Source of the DNA: Lysobacterales bacterium
GTDB taxonomy: Bacteria; Pseudomonadota; Gammaproteobacteria; Xanthomonadales; Marinicellaceae
Length of the DNA stretch: 42,673 nucleotides
Direction of reading: 5' to 3'
NCBI GenBank assembly: GCA_020442665.1
Contig: JAGRJP010000088.1
Location: 1 to 42,673 of the forward strand
This document shows, one piece after another, positions 1,678 through 8,586 of this stretch; the first letter of the stretch is position 1; each line of letters opens with the position of its first letter. The translations under genes and the position numbers were made by a program. The notes beneath the pieces were generated by a model. It did no database searches. It saw only the letters and a list, made by a program, of their open reading frames with translations, and was not told where the DNA came from.

Positions 1678-3165
1678 CTAAAAATCGAAATTACCACCAA
1701 AAATCATATCGTTGTGGAAATTGGCAATCAGACTTTTGAAATCCAAACCATCATAGCTCCACCCGGCAATATATAATTCCTCATTATTTGGATCAATGGA
1801 AACAGAGGTTGCTGAATCCCATAATACGCTGGTATCAAACGGAGTCACCGCTTTTCCACTTTTACCTATTCCCCAATTTGTGTCCAAGATACCATTGTAA
1901 GTATACTTTGCCAGAGCAGGAACAGATTTACTCAAACCACCATCATCCCAGGTTATATTTCCCGCAAGAACTATTGACCCTCCTTCGGGTTCCATTAGCA
2001 TTTCTGCAACATAATCATCTGTATCTCCCACGAAGATGAATTGAAAGTTTGTTGTTGTAATGCCGGTTCCGTTTTCTCCGAAACTTATGTTTCTTTCCCA
2101 ACTCGAACTATTAAAAGAAAACTTAGTTAACCCGAAATCCAAAAATGAGCTGTTGCCATCTCCGGGTAATGTGGCCGCAACAACTATTCCACTCGTTAAT
2201 AATATAATGCCACCGTTATCGACAAAATCCGTGACAAAAACCATATCATGCAGATATTCTCTCTCATCTAAAAAATCCGGCTCGGGTTGTGTTGACCATT
2301 TTCTCAGTAAAGATCCATCGGCTATGTTAAATTCACAAAACGCCAGGTTGGTACCATTCGCATTCACACCATTACCCTCAAAAGATGTTCCTCCAACAAT
2401 AACAGAACCTTGAAGCCAGTTATATACTATGGATCGAGCACTATCAGTATCATTGGTTGCCCCTTGATCAAAATAACAAATATTTTTACCATCAGTATCA
2501 AAGTTAGTATCCATACTCAAGCTTCCTGTAACCGGATCAACATTAACCATTGCCACGCCGAAATCAGTGTCTTGACTTCCTCCGCGCTCTACTTCAGCCG
2601 AAATTGCCAAACGGTTGAGTGTGGGCATGTAAACCATATCCGAGATATTGTCATCATTTCTTTCCCATGTTCCACCTAGATCAAAGGGAATGGTTATGTC
2701 TCCAACGGTAACACCACTTGAATTGACATAATAAATCTTTATATTTGAATGGCATTCATTTCCGACAATACAATACAATCGAGAATATCCCATGAATATG
2801 CTATCGGACGGACCAAGTACAAGACTATATTCAAATTGATTGATTGGAGCCGGAGGAACGGCAAAAGTTTTGATTCCACCGGTACCAAATGTATTATCAA
2901 GAGTTCCACTGGGAAGATATCTCTCTATGCGAGCTCCTTTGGCAGTACTTCCACCGGCATCATAATCATAAGTTCCGGCAACATAGATTCGCCCTTGTGA
3001 ATCCACTACTGTGGCGCTTCCATAACGATAATAACCTGTCTCTCCGCTTCTGTCCCAACCATCTGATACACCATCATTACTGAAAGATGTGTCCAAAGAC
3101 CCCAAGTCTATAGCTTTAGACTGAAAAATCGTAAATATTAATATCAGAAAAACTATCGTTTTCAT
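1678..3165 (-). CDS. Secreted delta-60 repeat protein, paralogue 1
   Basis: This 495-residue protein has a Sec signal peptide (MKTIVFLILIFTIFQSKA, cleavage near residue 19) followed by LGSLDTSFSNDGVSDGW. Delta-60-like repeats, with the pattern LDxxFGxxG followed by DSQGRIYVAG, occur near residues 22-75 and again near 440-480. Such repeats are thought to build a beta-propeller. Four cysteine positions are shared with the three downstream paralogues (the YCIVGNEC region, ICYFDQG and AFCEF), suggesting disulfides formed after export. The C terminus is HNDMIFGGNFDF, close to the ends of the paralogues. A promoter-like TGTCCT-N16-TCGT element lies 35 bases upstream of the ATG. The function is unknown; an extracellular or surface role is inferred. 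Confidence 0.82.
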   Translation of the reverse strand: MKTIVFLILIFTIFQSKAIDLGSLDTSFSNDGVSDGWDRSGETGYYRYGSATVVDSQGRIYVAGTYDYDAGGSTAKGARIERYLPSGTLDNTFGTGGIKTFAVPPAPINQFEYSLVLGPSDSIFMGYSRLYCIVGNECHSNIKIYYVNSSGVTVGDITIPFDLGGTWERNDDNISDMVYMPTLNRLAISAEVERGGSQDTDFGVAMVNVDPVTGSLSMDTNFDTDGKNICYFDQGATNDTDSARSIVYNWLQGSVIVGGTSFEGNGVNANGTNLAFCEFNIADGSLLRKWSTQPEPDFLDEREYLHDMVFVTDFVDNGGIILLTSGIVVAATLPGDGNSSFLDFGLTKFSFNSSSWERNISFGENGTGITTTNFQFIFVGDTDDYVAEMLMEPEGGSIVLAGNITWDDGGLSKSVPALAKYTYNGILDTNWGIGKSGKAVTPFDTSVLWDSATSVSIDPNNEELYIAGWSYDGLDFKSLIANFHNDMIFGGNFDF

Positions 3166-3200
3166 TTTTCACCTCATTATTTTCTTTAACAACCTTATTA

Positions 3201-3226
3201 ACGACGTTTTTATACTGAATAGGACA
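3201..3226 (-). promoter_or_regulatory. TGTCCT-N16-TCGT promoter-like element for delta-60 paralogue 1
   Basis: On the minus strand TGTCCT (3226-3221) and TCGT (3204-3201) are separated by exactly 16 bases. The downstream box is 36 positions from the ATG, the same as for paralogues 2 and 3. The geometry resembles an ECF-sigma -35/-10 pair rather than a sigma-70 promoter. The identity of the sigma factor is inferred, not seen. Confidence 0.7.
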
Positions 3227-3244
3227 AGCTGTTTATAACTTTTT

Positions 3245-4747
3245 TTAGTCCTCGAATCGAGATGCAAAAATCAAGTCATTGTGATACTTTGCTAAAGTAA
3301 TACGAGTAGAAAAATCTGTAAAGTTTTGGCTCTTACCAACGGTGTATAAACTTTCAGTAACCGAATCTATTGCTAATGAAAAAACTCCTTCACCATAAAT
3401 AGGATTAAATTGGTGAATAAAAAACCCACTTTTATTTTGACCCCAGTTAAAATTTAATAAGCCATTTGGAGTATATTTTGCCAGAATTACAGCCTCTCTT
3501 TTGATGCCAAAAGGATTTCCGCCATCCAGCCAACTGGCATAGCCTGCAACTGTTATACTTCCATCTTCAGACTCTCTAAGCATCTTACTGACTCTGTCAT
3601 CGGTTGCGCCAAAGGATGGAACGTTAAAAGAGGTTGTTGTCCAACCATTACCGTTTGCTCCGAATGTTGTATCAATTTGCCACCCTGATTCTGATAATTT
3701 ATATTTCGTCAAAGCAAAATCATATCCTCCGCTACCTACAACCATACCTGATATATAGAGGTTGCTGCTTAGATTGCCTTGGTCGATTGTTCCTTCAAGG
3801 CGATAAAACATATCTTTTAATAGCTCAACATCAACAAAGAAATCCGGTAATGGTTCAGTTGACCATTGTCTAATCAGTGTTCCAGAAAAATCATATTCAC
3901 AGAAAGCCAGATTCCAACCATCGCTGTTCAGGCCATTTCCTTCAAAAGCTGAACCTCCAATAATTAGATGATTGGATAGGCTGTCATAGTCAAGAACCTC
4001 AACAAAATCTTCATCACCCAATAATCCATTATGATTCGCTTGATTAAATGAGCAAGTATCCAGTCCATCTGTACTAAAACCGCTATCTAAAGACATTTCT
4101 CCGGTTGAGGGGTTTACATTCAGCAACGCTATTCCAAAGTCAAAGTCGTTTCCATTGGTTAAGTCGATAGAAACATTCGAGGTTACTGCTAACTTTTGTG
4201 AAGCTCCAAAGTACTTCATATCAACAAAGAAGTCATTCGGATAAAAGGGGTCTATATCAAATCCAAACATGAATTCATCATAAACTTGTCCAGACTCACT
4301 AATATGCGACAAGAAAACCTCCTTATTACAACTTGATTGACTACATGTTTCGCTTGTGTAGCCTATAAAAACAGCACCATTGTTTCCTTTTTCAATTTTT
4401 ACTTTTCCTTTTAAATCACCATTGCCGTTGGATGAGTTGACCATCTTGGTTTGAAACTCTAATATCCCCGGAGTCGGACTGGTAGGAGCAAAGTTTGTAC
4501 TATCTAACGTTCCATCTGAAAGAAAGCGATAAAGATGGACTCTGTCACTTGTTAAGTTTTGTCCCAATACATAGACTCTTTGAAGATCATCAACAAATAC
4601 CGAGGCTCCCCAATCTCCCTCAAGAGGTAAGTGCTCATATCCCACACTACTTCCAAAATAATTGAAACTTGTGTCTAGACTTCCTAAGTCTATTGCTTCT
4701 GAATTTGTTACTAATAAAATAGTTAATAAAAAGATTCTCGATTTCAT
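3245..4747 (-). CDS. Secreted delta-60 repeat protein, paralogue 2
   Basis: I placed the start at ATG 4747 (MKSRIFLLTILL), giving 500 residues. A TTG at 4762 has an AGGA six bases before it and would add five residues. The ATG is preferred because the upstream promoter-like element then falls at exactly the same distance as in paralogues 1 and 3. The protein has a signal peptide ending near NSEA, then IDLGSLDTSF, interior blocks SAFEGNGL, AFCEYDF and WSTEPLPDFF, and the end HNDLIFASRFED. The CSQSSC pair and two further cysteines match the sister proteins. It diverges most from the others in the N-terminal third. It is probably exported and beta-propeller-like; the function is unknown. Confidence 0.8.
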   Translation of the reverse strand: MKSRIFLLTILLVTNSEAIDLGSLDTSFNYFGSSVGYEHLPLEGDWGASVFVDDLQRVYVLGQNLTSDRVHLYRFLSDGTLDSTNFAPTSPTPGILEFQTKMVNSSNGNGDLKGKVKIEKGNNGAVFIGYTSETCSQSSCNKEVFLSHISESGQVYDEFMFGFDIDPFYPNDFFVDMKYFGASQKLAVTSNVSIDLTNGNDFDFGIALLNVNPSTGEMSLDSGFSTDGLDTCSFNQANHNGLLGDEDFVEVLDYDSLSNHLIIGGSAFEGNGLNSDGWNLAFCEYDFSGTLIRQWSTEPLPDFFVDVELLKDMFYRLEGTIDQGNLSSNLYISGMVVGSGGYDFALTKYKLSESGWQIDTTFGANGNGWTTTSFNVPSFGATDDRVSKMLRESEDGSITVAGYASWLDGGNPFGIKREAVILAKYTPNGLLNFNWGQNKSGFFIHQFNPIYGEGVFSLAIDSVTESLYTVGKSQNFTDFSTRITLAKYHNDLIFASRFED

Positions 4748-4782
4748 ATATGTTTTCAACAATGTTTGTCCTACTTATCTTT

Positions 4783-4808
4783 ACGATAATACAATCTCAA
4801 AAAGGACA
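4783..4808 (-). promoter_or_regulatory. TGTCCT-N16-TCGT promoter-like element for delta-60 paralogue 2
   Basis: TGTCCT (4808-4803) and TCGT (4786-4783) on the minus strand are 16 bases apart. The downstream box is 36 positions from ATG 4747. The fixed spacing also decides the start codon against TTG 4762. Confidence 0.7.
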
Positions 4809-4818
4809 TATTTGTTCA

Positions 4819-4844
4819 GAAAAAAAGCCGGAAATATTCCGGCT
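4819..4844 (-). terminator. Rho-independent terminator after delta-60 paralogue 3
   Basis: Perfect hairpin AGCCGGAA-(3)-TTCCGGCT at 4826-4844, followed on the minus strand by seven T. It closes the transcript of paralogue 3 just before the promoter element of paralogue 2, so these two genes are separate transcription units. Confidence 0.85.
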
Positions 4845-4872
4845 CTAAATAATGCGGTTGAGTGAAACCGGA

Positions 4873-6357
4873 TTAAAAGTCAAAATTACCGCCGTGGATT
4901 AAATCATTATGAAACTTGGCAATAATTCTTTTCTCGTTGTTTCCTTCATAACTTAAACCGGTTGCAAAAATTGATTCTCCGACACCTTTTTCGGCGATAT
5001 CCAAGAATCCGTCCCTTTTAGTAACGCTATCCAATATAACAAGAGATTTTCCCGAATTGCTCTGTCCCCAGTTCGTATCGAGAATGCCATTTTTTGTAAA
5101 TCTTACTAATGAGCCTGCGGACAAAGAATTTGCTCCATCATCCCAACTTGAAGAGCCTCCTATTAACAATCCTCCATCTTCAGGTTCAGAAATTAACTTA
5201 TAAACGGTGTCATTGGTATCGACATTATTAAAATTACTATCCAAAAGAGTAAAAGTTGCTGTTGTCCAACCGGTTCCATTTGGACCGAAACTGTTTTCAA
5301 TGATCCAATCCATGCCGTCAAAGTGATACTTAACTAATGCGAAATCATTGGTATCACTAGCGCTTGTTAACATACCGGCAACAATTAAATCTCCATCGTT
5401 ATTAAATACAACATCTCTCAGATACTCCTGATCGTCACCAAAAATACTATTAGGAAGTGGCTCTGTTGACCATTGCTCAATTAATGTTCCTGATGGTTCG
5501 CCAACAATATCGGTTAATCTGAACTCACAAAAAGCCATATTAAAACCGCTGGAAAAGGCTCCATTACCCTCAAACGACTCTCCTGCAACAATAACAGTGT
5601 TTTGTAGAGAGTTAAACACAATGGCAGAGGAAGTATCAACCTCACTGGTGAAATTTGGATCTTGATTAAATGTACAAGTATTCAAGCCATCTGCATTAAA
5701 ATTTGTATCTAAACTTAAAGAACCTTCTGTTGCCACATTGAGAACAGCGATACCAAAGTCAATGTCATAGTAAGGCGTTGCCAAAGTATCTACACTCAAA
5801 GCAACCACCAGTTTATCCAGTGTTGGTATATAAATCATTTCTGAAAACTTATCATTCTTAGAGTTCACATCTGGTCCTAAATCAAAGGCGATATTTTGTA
5901 CTCCAAGTATAGAGCCACTGTCATTAAAATGATAAATAATGGTGTCGTTACAGTTTGATCCGGCACAATTATCATAGCTATAACCCAGAAAAAAACCATC
6001 GTTCTCGTCCAAGACTATTTGAATATGTATTAAACCCAAGAGATCTGGTCTGTTTAAAAAAACGGATATAGACTGAGAGTTGAATGTCGGGTCAATGGAT
6101 CCACTTGGTAAATATCTTTCGACAAAAACTCTTATGTCATTTTGTCCTAAGTTATCAAAAAACTCAGATCCAGCAATCAAAGCTCGGCCTTGTGAATCGA
6201 CAACAATTGATGTACCACCTGTTGCATAGCCGTTGACTCCTGTTCTTTGCCAACCATCGGTGACACCATCATTGCTAAATGTGGTATCCAGACTACCTAG
6301 GTTGATAGCAAAACAGTTTGTGCTGATTAAAATTAATATGATAATAACTTGTTTCAT
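4873..6357 (-). CDS. Secreted delta-60 repeat protein, paralogue 3
   Basis: This 494-residue protein is closest to paralogues 1 and 4. It has a signal peptide (MKQVIIILILISTNCFA), then INLGSLDTTFSNDGVTDGW and VDSQGRALIAGSEF, which form a first delta-60 repeat, and a last repeat near LDTNWGQSNSGKS. Conserved interior blocks are NCAGSNC, TCTFNQD, ESFEGNGA, AFCEF and WSTEPLPNS, and the protein ends HNDLIHGGNFDF. The signal-peptide cysteine (NCFA) is not in a convincing lipobox. It has its own upstream TGTCCT-N16-TCGT element and its own downstream terminator. No catalytic motif is visible; a structural or binding role outside the cytoplasm is inferred. Confidence 0.82.
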   Translation of the reverse strand: MKQVIIILILISTNCFAINLGSLDTTFSNDGVTDGWQRTGVNGYATGGTSIVVDSQGRALIAGSEFFDNLGQNDIRVFVERYLPSGSIDPTFNSQSISVFLNRPDLLGLIHIQIVLDENDGFFLGYSYDNCAGSNCNDTIIYHFNDSGSILGVQNIAFDLGPDVNSKNDKFSEMIYIPTLDKLVVALSVDTLATPYYDIDFGIAVLNVATEGSLSLDTNFNADGLNTCTFNQDPNFTSEVDTSSAIVFNSLQNTVIVAGESFEGNGAFSSGFNMAFCEFRLTDIVGEPSGTLIEQWSTEPLPNSIFGDDQEYLRDVVFNNDGDLIVAGMLTSASDTNDFALVKYHFDGMDWIIENSFGPNGTGWTTATFTLLDSNFNNVDTNDTVYKLISEPEDGGLLIGGSSSWDDGANSLSAGSLVRFTKNGILDTNWGQSNSGKSLVILDSVTKRDGFLDIAEKGVGESIFATGLSYEGNNEKRIIAKFHNDLIHGGNFDF

Positions 6358-6392
6358 TTTTTTTCTCGTTAGATTGTTCCTATTTAAGATTC

Positions 6393-6418
6393 ACGACCTT
6401 AAAAAGCCAATCAGGACA
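6393..6418 (-). promoter_or_regulatory. TGTCCT-N16-TCGT promoter-like element for delta-60 paralogue 3
   Basis: TGTCCT (6418-6413) and TCGT (6396-6393) on the minus strand have a 16-base spacer. The downstream box is again 36 positions from the ATG at 6357. Spacer sequences differ among copies, so only the two boxes and the spacing are conserved. Confidence 0.7.
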
Positions 6419-6432
6419 TTTTTTAAAATTTT

Positions 6433-7950
6433 TTAATCAAACGACCCGGCAAAAATCGAATCGTTAATATGTTTAGAAATTAATAACGAATCGTTACCGT
6501 TATTGCTGGATGGATAAGTGCCTGTAGTGAAAATTGACTCAGCAGACCCTGATACAGTGATATCACTTATGGTTTTTATATTTGTTATATCATCTAAGAC
6601 AACCATGGTTTTGCCGGACTTATTATCGCCCCAGTTTTTATCCAAGATTCCGTTTTTGGTAAACTTTAATAATGCTCCGTTAATTCTTCTGTCAGACAGG
6701 TCATACCACTCTGAATAACCTCCGATTAAAATACTTCCGTCTTCCGATTCAACAAACAAACTTTTTGCAACATCTTCAGTATCAACGAATCCGCTGTTAC
6801 TATCCAAAAGACTGAAACCGGTGATTGCCCATCCTGTTCCGAAAGGTCCAAAACTTGTATCCAAAACCCAGTCCATTCCGTCATAAACGTACTTAACTAG
6901 AGCAAAGTCATCGCTATTTGCACCATTTGTAAAACCTGTTGCAAACAATGTTTTCACTCCAACCAAACCGGAACCTGTATCCACATATTCGGTTTTGTAT
7001 TTAACATCGTATAATATTTCTTCATCATAGATAAAAGGAGAGTTTGGCAGGGTTTCGGTTGACCATTTTTCTATGACTGTTCCCGGCGGATTACCGTCTT
7101 GTTGAAACAGGTTAAACTCACAGAAAGACATGTTTTTCCCCGTTAAAGCTGCACCATTTCCTTCAAACGACCAACCACCAACAATAACAGTATTACTATC
7201 AAAGTTAGCTGTAATTGCCCGAGCCTCATCGGTATTGTTGTGACCTGTACTATCCTGATTAAAAAAGCAACTGGACTTACTATTGTTTCCAAAGCTAGTA
7301 TCTGCAGCGACTCCTCCTCCCTGAAACACATTCAGCAGAACAACGCCAAAATCTTTATTGTATGTTGGCGAGTTATCAACTTTTACATCAATTGCAACAG
7401 CGAGTTTTTTTTCGACGGTGAAATAAACCATATCCACAAAGTCATCATCTTGTGACGATACAACAGAACCAGCATCAAAGGATATTGATGCTCCTCCTAA
7501 AACAGCCCCCGACTCTGAAATATGATAGACAAAAGTATCAATGCATGTATCTACTCCTTCACAACTGTTATAGGAGTATGCCAGAAAAAAATTATTAAAC
7601 TCATCAAGTTCTAATCCTACTTTCACAATATTATTTGAATAGGGCTTATTTAACACACTTCCCAATCCTGCAGAGTTTAAAGTGTTATCATAGGTTCCAT
7701 CCGGCAAATATCTTCTGACCATGACTCTTTGACCCTGCCCAAAAATAACCTCTACACCAGCTACCAGAATTCTTCCTTGTCGATCTACTGCTACTGATTG
7801 TCCGCTCACACTTCCACCGGTGACACCATCCAGCAACCAACCATCACTGACTCCGTCGTTGCTGAAAGAGGTATCCAAACTCCCAAGGTTGATTGCAAAA
7901 CTACGAGAGGTTAATATTAAAACTAAAAATATAATCATTTTTTTCATCAT
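6433..7950 (-). CDS. Secreted delta-60 repeat protein, paralogue 4
   Basis: The frame extends upstream to 8010, but that part overlaps the end of the preceding gene. The start chosen is ATG 7950 (MMKKMIIFLVLILTSRSFA), preceded by GAGAG and giving a normal signal peptide; the product has 505 residues. It carries INLGSLDTSFSNDGVSDGW, VDRQGRILVAG, SCEGVDTC, SCFFNQD, WSFEGNGA, SFCEF and WSTETLPNS, and ends INDSIFAGSFD. Unlike its three sisters it has no TGTCCT element of its own. It begins 14 bases after the small secreted protein at 7965-8522 and is probably co-transcribed with it. The function is unknown. Confidence 0.8.
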   Translation of the reverse strand: MMKKMIIFLVLILTSRSFAINLGSLDTSFSNDGVSDGWLLDGVTGGSVSGQSVAVDRQGRILVAGVEVIFGQGQRVMVRRYLPDGTYDNTLNSAGLGSVLNKPYSNNIVKVGLELDEFNNFFLAYSYNSCEGVDTCIDTFVYHISESGAVLGGASISFDAGSVVSSQDDDFVDMVYFTVEKKLAVAIDVKVDNSPTYNKDFGVVLLNVFQGGGVAADTSFGNNSKSSCFFNQDSTGHNNTDEARAITANFDSNTVIVGGWSFEGNGAALTGKNMSFCEFNLFQQDGNPPGTVIEKWSTETLPNSPFIYDEEILYDVKYKTEYVDTGSGLVGVKTLFATGFTNGANSDDFALVKYVYDGMDWVLDTSFGPFGTGWAITGFSLLDSNSGFVDTEDVAKSLFVESEDGSILIGGYSEWYDLSDRRINGALLKFTKNGILDKNWGDNKSGKTMVVLDDITNIKTISDITVSGSAESIFTTGTYPSSNNGNDSLLISKHINDSIFAGSFD

Positions 7951-7964
7951 CTTTTCACTCTCTA

Positions 7965-8522
7965 TCACCAACAACCCAGATAATAAACACCATCGTAATA
8001 TTGTGTGCATCCGTCATCACCCATACGCCCAAGAATAGACATTGTGGATTTGTGCATATCAGAACTGATTTGCGACATAGTATTCCAGTCAGTTGTTTGA
8101 GATGGCGCTGCAATCATTCCTTGTTTAATTGCCATCAAATATTGAACTAATACCTGTGCAACGGCATTAGCGTGAGGCCAACGATAAACATCATTTGGTA
8201 AAACATTCACTTGTTGGGACTGATTGTAGTCGTTAATGACATATTGACCTTGCGGTGTCAGCATGTATTTGTATTTAACGACGTCACCTTGAAGCTCACC
8301 GAAATAAGCAAAATATTGCGTTGGATGAAAATATGTTATTAGCCCGGAGTTTCCCAAGTAATAAATCGTATTTTGCTGACCAATGAAAGGACCGGCTATT
8401 TGGTTGCTGGCATCAATTCCGGGCAATCCCACACTCGCTGCAATTTGTGCTCCACTATTATAAGGAGATGAAAAAACAGAGGTGTTTACCAGTATCAGTA
8501 TTAAAAAGAGTTTTCTTGTCAT
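7965..8522 (-). CDS. Uncharacterised secreted protein, operon partner of delta-60 paralogue 4
   Basis: I chose ATG 8522 because GGAGAG sits five bases before it; an upstream frame start at 8537 has no such site. The 185-residue product has a signal peptide (MTRKLFLILILVNTSVFS). The mature part is rich in Gln, Tyr and Asn (NQIAGPFIGQQNTIYYLGNSG, YVINDYNQSQQVN) and ends with two cysteines in GCTQYYDGVYYLGCW. I do not recognise a family. It is preceded by the TGTCCT-N16-TCGT element found before the delta-60 genes and leads directly into paralogue 4, so it belongs to the same regulon. It may be a partner of, or an export aid for, the delta-60 proteins; that is speculation. Confidence 0.7.
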   Translation of the reverse strand: MTRKLFLILILVNTSVFSSPYNSGAQIAASVGLPGIDASNQIAGPFIGQQNTIYYLGNSGLITYFHPTQYFAYFGELQGDVVKYKYMLTPQGQYVINDYNQSQQVNVLPNDVYRWPHANAVAQVLVQYLMAIKQGMIAAPSQTTDWNTMSQISSDMHKSTMSILGRMGDDGCTQYYDGVYYLGCW

Positions 8523-8560
8523 GTTTGCTCTCCGCATTTTTTATTCGCTTATTTGCAAAC

Positions 8561-8586
8561 ACGACAATGATTATTTTGATAGGACA
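8561..8586 (-). promoter_or_regulatory. TGTCCT-N16-TCGT promoter-like element for the secreted protein/delta-60-4 operon
   Basis: TGTCCT (8586-8581) and TCGT (8564-8561) on the minus strand are 16 bases apart, with the downstream box 39 positions from ATG 8522. This is the fourth copy and the only one in front of a gene that is not a delta-60 protein. Confidence 0.68.

Follow-up and report, generated by a model that had tools for sequence, protein, structure and literature searches.

A two-box element, TGTCCT-N16-TCGT, found upstream of exported-protein genes in the Marinicellaceae, a family of marine bacteria in the Lysobacterales, is highly likely to supply the -35 and -10 boxes of promoters recognised by a single ECF sigma factor, a 188-aa TIGR02999/PF07638 protein encoded on contig C339 of the genome to which the window belongs (the window being the whole stretch of 42,673 nt that was analysed). 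Direct computation gave the element with its fixed geometry and confinement to signal-sequence genes, the co-occurrence with one sigma clade, the change from TCGT to CGAT in some relatives and the adjacency of sigma and element in several relatives; direct recognition by the C339 sigma and the transcription start site are what we infer from the sequences. With this sigma, RNA polymerase would initiate about 33 nt downstream of the element's first T, giving a transcript leader of about 28 nt, and the genes transcribed would form a small regulon for exported proteins of several kinds (delta-60-like, beta-helix/PMP-repeat, CBM-like, S74-chaperone and small unknown ones). Where the sigma diverged in related species, the promoter has changed along with it.

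A pattern search of the whole window returned four exact copies of the element, all on the minus strand, and no fifth exact match, compared with a mean of 0.04 and a maximum of 1 in 100 dinucleotide shuffles. This agrees with the preliminary description, which had placed four copies upstream of three delta-60 genes and of the small secreted gene at 7965-8522, with no further two-box match in the window. The geometry that it gave was also recovered, the ATG lying 39, 36, 36 and 36 positions after the last TCGT base for elements 4, 3, 2 and 1 (Table 1), and its A 64, 61, 61 and 61 nt from the first T of TGTCCT. The four copies share identical boxes but have dissimilar spacers, hence only boxes and spacing are conserved, as had been claimed. 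All four elements precede genes with a Sec-type signal sequence, as called by a hydrophobicity rule and reading of the sequence, and the homologue of the 185-aa small secreted protein in a relative (G030, L064) also has an upstream element. The delta-60-like gene at 6433..7950 lacks a separate site, since its start lies only a short way past the stop of the preceding gene; it is predicted to be the second gene in an operon driven by promoter 4, and four promoters would therefore serve five genes.

Table 1. Putative promoter elements and genes of the window (positions are those of the window).
Feature	Position	Strand	Details
Promoter element 4	8561..8586	minus	TGTCCT 8586-8581 (-35 box), N16, TCGT 8564-8561 (-10 box); predicted start near 8553
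Small secreted protein, 185 aa	7965..8522	minus	no Pfam or NCBIfam match
Delta-60-like secreted protein	6433..7950	minus	without own element; ATG at 7950, 14 nt past preceding stop
Promoter element 3	6393..6418	minus	predicted start near 6385
Delta-60-like secreted protein, 494 aa	4873..6357	minus	NCBIfam TIGR02608 60.8 bits (below the 76.5 cut-off); Pfam DUF5122 23.1 bits (also below cut-off)
Promoter element 2	4783..4808	minus	predicted start near 4775
Delta-60-like secreted protein, 500 aa	3245..4747	minus	ATG at 4747, 61 nt from TGTCCT
Promoter element 1	3201..3226	minus	predicted start near 3193
Delta-60-like secreted protein, 495 aa	1678..3165	minus	

Three of the four sites precede paralogues, as would be seen if spacers had been duplicated together with tandem genes, but the probability that the sites arose in this way or by chance is close to nil. 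The delta-60-like paralogues are only 39-49% identical to the query and their spacers differ where the boxes are exact, which excludes recent copying, and the element also stands before genes of unrelated families, both on further contigs of the genome and in other species, so that the data already contradict such an origin. Many exported proteins of different families, with or without the element, end in a short C-terminal tail, D-x-IF-x-NGFE / IF..FD (seen in the window at 1678-8010 and at loci L021, L022, L023, L024, L025, L028, L030, L149, L151 and L154), and this tail may serve the secretome as a shared C-terminal signal.

In the window's own assembly (G000; 2.86 Mb, 360 contigs, 94% complete), the genome-wide search for TGTCCT-N15-17-TCGT that had been proposed gave no N15, seven N16 and two N17 matches. 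Both N17 matches are out of context, while each of the seven N16 sites falls between genes and precedes one with a signal sequence, at 58-64 nt in six cases and at 135 nt in the seventh; the three outside the window lie on C57 (58 nt), on C100 (61 nt, before a gene for beta-helix/PMP repeats) and on C328 (135 nt, a less certain case). As the raw N16 count barely exceeds the composition expectation (seven found vs approximately four by a rough estimate), significance rests on position, and since reversed controls can exceed raw counts (16 matches for the reversed pattern with N15-17 vs nine for the true one), gene context was used instead of raw motif counts. With one mismatch allowed, only two sites occur in such context, both TGTCAT-N16-TCGT (C125:5550 and 6268, L399), 57 and 59 nt before the ATG of tandem signal-sequence genes. 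The suggestion of a dedicated regulon for exported proteins is upheld by these positions; as read from the sequence, it is a small regulon in this genome, in which six genes or operons are secure members, one more is doubtful and two are possible variants, spanning several protein families.

The records matching the element include contigs of Marinicella litoralis, M. pacifica and M. gelatinilytica. Across Marinicellaceae relatives, 31 of 33 scored sites lie 56-70 nt from the ATG, and the in-context sites, for which the boxes were fixed in the search pattern, precede genes for delta-60-like, CBM-like, S74-chaperone, PMP-repeat and small unknown proteins. Changing the spacing to N15 in the same 12 genomes gave 11 matches, none in context, compared with 32 of 48 for N16, and high-GC matches in other families were intragenic. 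A conserved intergenic string, TGTCCTATTTTGTT[A/G]CT[T/A]AAT[T/C]TCGT, was also seen in four genomes (G002:C2:33624, G003:C176:2671, G009:C53:44074, G007:C224:215); it has no signal-sequence gene downstream, and two of the four genomes are without the C339-type sigma.

Because the boxes of the logo are fixed by the search pattern, only flanks and distances count as free evidence. Among the 33 aligned sites, the free columns are a T before the first box and [GA]TT after it, TG before TCGT and (T/A)A after it; the upstream DNA is rich in A/T, and 29 of the sites have a purine at +33. The element has the bipartite -35/-10 arrangement with 16 +/- 1 bp spacing and the CGT-type -10 of ECF-type promoters, and a C occupies the presumed -10 position at which RpoE requires one (PMC8103513). 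Its anatomy is as expected of an ECF promoter: transcription is predicted to start at +33, which puts the boxes at -33 and -11 and leaves a ~28-nt leader. Fixed spacing and a fixed distance to the ATG could also be produced by an activator or repressor whose binding site the boxes would form, with a separate nearby promoter driving the genes. We consider this very improbable, as the element is asymmetric, only ~35 nt separate it from the ATG, no TATAAT-like column was seen downstream of it in the 33 aligned sites, and both its presence and its form track an ECF clade.

The candidate ECF sigma (L151; G000:C339:6744-7310, minus strand) is encoded on a different contig from the window, beside gyrA and htpG, and scores above both cut-offs (TIGR02999 139.8 bits, cut-off 126.15; PF07638 116.9, cut-off 21.1). 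The first candidates came out wrong because a PF04542 search, which found 11 sigma proteins in G000, missed most TIGR02999 sigmas; a PF07638 search gave 14 matches. The candidates derived from PF04542 (L011-L020, including the kinase-linked L017) were dropped, the element being near none of them. Upstream of the C339 sigma gene itself no element was found in G000. In the 20-kb neighbourhoods of element genes, the ECFs found were all of the C339-sigma clade (G032, G004, G012), at distances of ~1 kb in G032 and ~6 kb in G012 and G004; G019 and G024 have it as the gene directly after an element gene.

A profile of the C339-sigma kind (A2) detected this sigma in 16 of the 33 Marinicellaceae genomes at 215-337 bits, with the next best paralogue at 152. 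The element is in context in every one of the 12 genomes that carry the main form of the sigma, vs 2 of the 21 others (Fisher 2.6e-7, with genomes counted as independent in a set of MAGs that holds the near-siblings G000/G004, G019/G024 and G003/G009). The two are G014, whose match proved to be a false positive within a gene, and G007, which is the only one of 17 genomes without either sigma form to have a true in-context element; no C339-type sigma was detected in its assembly (87% complete, 680 contigs). The other genomes that lack the clade have up to 25 other PF07638 matches and no in-context element. Very probably, then, the regulator belongs to one clade of TIGR02999/PF07638 ECF sigma factors, and genome context, relatives, the N15 control and this co-occurrence support the ECF-promoter reading given in the preliminary description.

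An ECF promoter read by some other sigma, whether a TIGR02999 paralogue, RpoE or one missing from the assembly, is likewise very improbable. It draws on the 14 PF07638 matches in an assembly that is 94% complete, on G007, and on an element in G041 that adjoins a different TIGR02999 sigma; against it stand the clean co-occurrence with a single clade, the abundance of other paralogues in genomes without the element, the adjacency, and a -10 box that shifts with the C339 clade. The G041 case (C42, L335, 4618-9375) lies outside Marinicellaceae, where a TIGR02999 sigma with a DTTG tetrad and a long gene adjoin a TGTCCT-N16-TCGT site that lies 83 nt ahead of the gene for a secreted protein, and recognition of the element may therefore reach beyond the clade. 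At two further loci of G000 (L021 9621-19982 and L149 9605-17279), an ECF gene, a long kinase-like gene and genes for large secreted proteins come one after another, and these proteins bear the C-terminal tail described above; individual ECFs may each control exported targets of their own.

For recognition by the C339 clade, four genomes with a divergent form of the sigma (G003, G005, G009, G010) are the most telling. None has the TCGT element in context, and they carry instead TGTCCT-N17-CGAT, with the extended string TGTCCTATT-N14-CGAT. All eight sites of this string are intergenic before signal-sequence genes, at 60-65 nt, with two at 86-98 nt; one lies 60 nt before the G005 delta-60 homologue, which had been found independently. 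The divergent sigma adjoins an element gene in G003 and G010. Among the other 29 genomes, whose shorter CGAT matches were inspected in part, the extended string occurs once, within a gene of G012. In the tree the divergent sigmas group together as a single nested clade (100/100) set off by a long branch, and in the alignment they differ from all main sigmas by T81N, Q85F/Y and K92R in the AATAMRQ...K stretch of sigma2. The helix of sigma70 region 2.4 reads the -10, and by alignment to it the helix with T81N and Q85F/Y should do the same; the roles of these residues rest on alignment and general knowledge because relatives with solved structures matched weakly (SigL, E 2e-4). Judging from the tree and the sites, sigma and promoter changed on the same branch, and we regard this as the strongest evidence for direct recognition. 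This would be a natural case of joint sigma/promoter change, two sigma2 residues vs one -10 base, useful for the study of ECF specificity and evolution.

The proposed search for an ECF sigma paired with an anti-sigma or kinase gave the ECF clade, and no anti-sigma was recognised beside the C339 sigma; the gene that follows it encodes a protein with cNMP-binding and EAL domains (Pfam), with a near-identical gene in G004. The next gene is a kinase or kinase-like gene in 7 of 16 genomes, a Ser/Thr kinase confirmed by Pfam in G012 and similar in sequence in the six others. In the ECF43 members known so far, DAED has given way to a QTTA motif in which a Thr must be phosphorylated (PMC13147305, PMC8999054). 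The sigma2.2 tetrad is TPND in the C339 sigma and SAND, NSHD, SPNE, SPQE, ASAE and similar in the others, its fourth residue being acidic in 15/15 full-length sequences and Thr occupying the third position only in G030 (SATE). Activation by a non-classical ECF43 route is likely, given the acidic fourth residue, the lack of Thr except in G030 and the varied neighbour genes. The signal could possibly come from a kinase acting elsewhere, or from the cNMP/EAL protein behind the sigma in G000. A tentative and rather doubtful scenario is that a TIGR02999 sigma lost its phospho-threonine switch and kept its secretome promoter, that in the window's lineage it became coupled to the cNMP-binding/EAL protein so that second messengers gate the regulon, and that a nested subclade re-tuned its -10 recognition along with all its promoters.

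The TIGR02999/ECF43-like family is large, with more than 20 such sigmas in some genomes of the family, and a limited literature search found no promoter or regulon for this group; the present analysis gives one such sigma a promoter open to testing and a small exported-protein regulon. Close known systems include the ECF43 factors that act with Hanks-type kinases, EcfP/PknT of Vibrio parahaemolyticus and EcfK/PknS of Xanthomonas citri (PMC13147305, PMC8999054), which are of the same broad TIGR02999/PF07638 type; a kinase or kinase-like neighbour is seen in 7 of our 16 genomes. In ECF43, DAED is replaced by uncharged residues with a phosphorylatable Thr, whereas the C339 sigma has TPND, the phospho-Thr position is non-Thr in all but G030, the fourth residue is acidic, and the next gene in the window's genome is the cNMP-binding and EAL one. 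The RpoE envelope-stress regulons resemble the present system in ECF geometry, exported targets and the C at the presumed -10 position, but the genome has its own RpoE as a separate gene (L011), the -35 and -10 sequences differ, and the C339 sigma is without a recognised anti-sigma neighbour. The ECF41 promoter, TGTCACA-N16-CGTC, likewise combines a TGTC-type -35 with a CGT-type -10 at an equal box-to-box distance, and its leader is similarly short (22/23 nt vs the ~28 nt predicted here) (PMC3426412). The C339 sigma is nevertheless not an ECF41 member: the -35 (TGTCCT, not TGTCACA) and the -10 differ from those of ECF41, the 188-aa sigma has Pfam sigma domains only and no room for the large C-terminal extension of that group, and the targets are secreted proteins, whereas those of ECF41 are COE enzymes.
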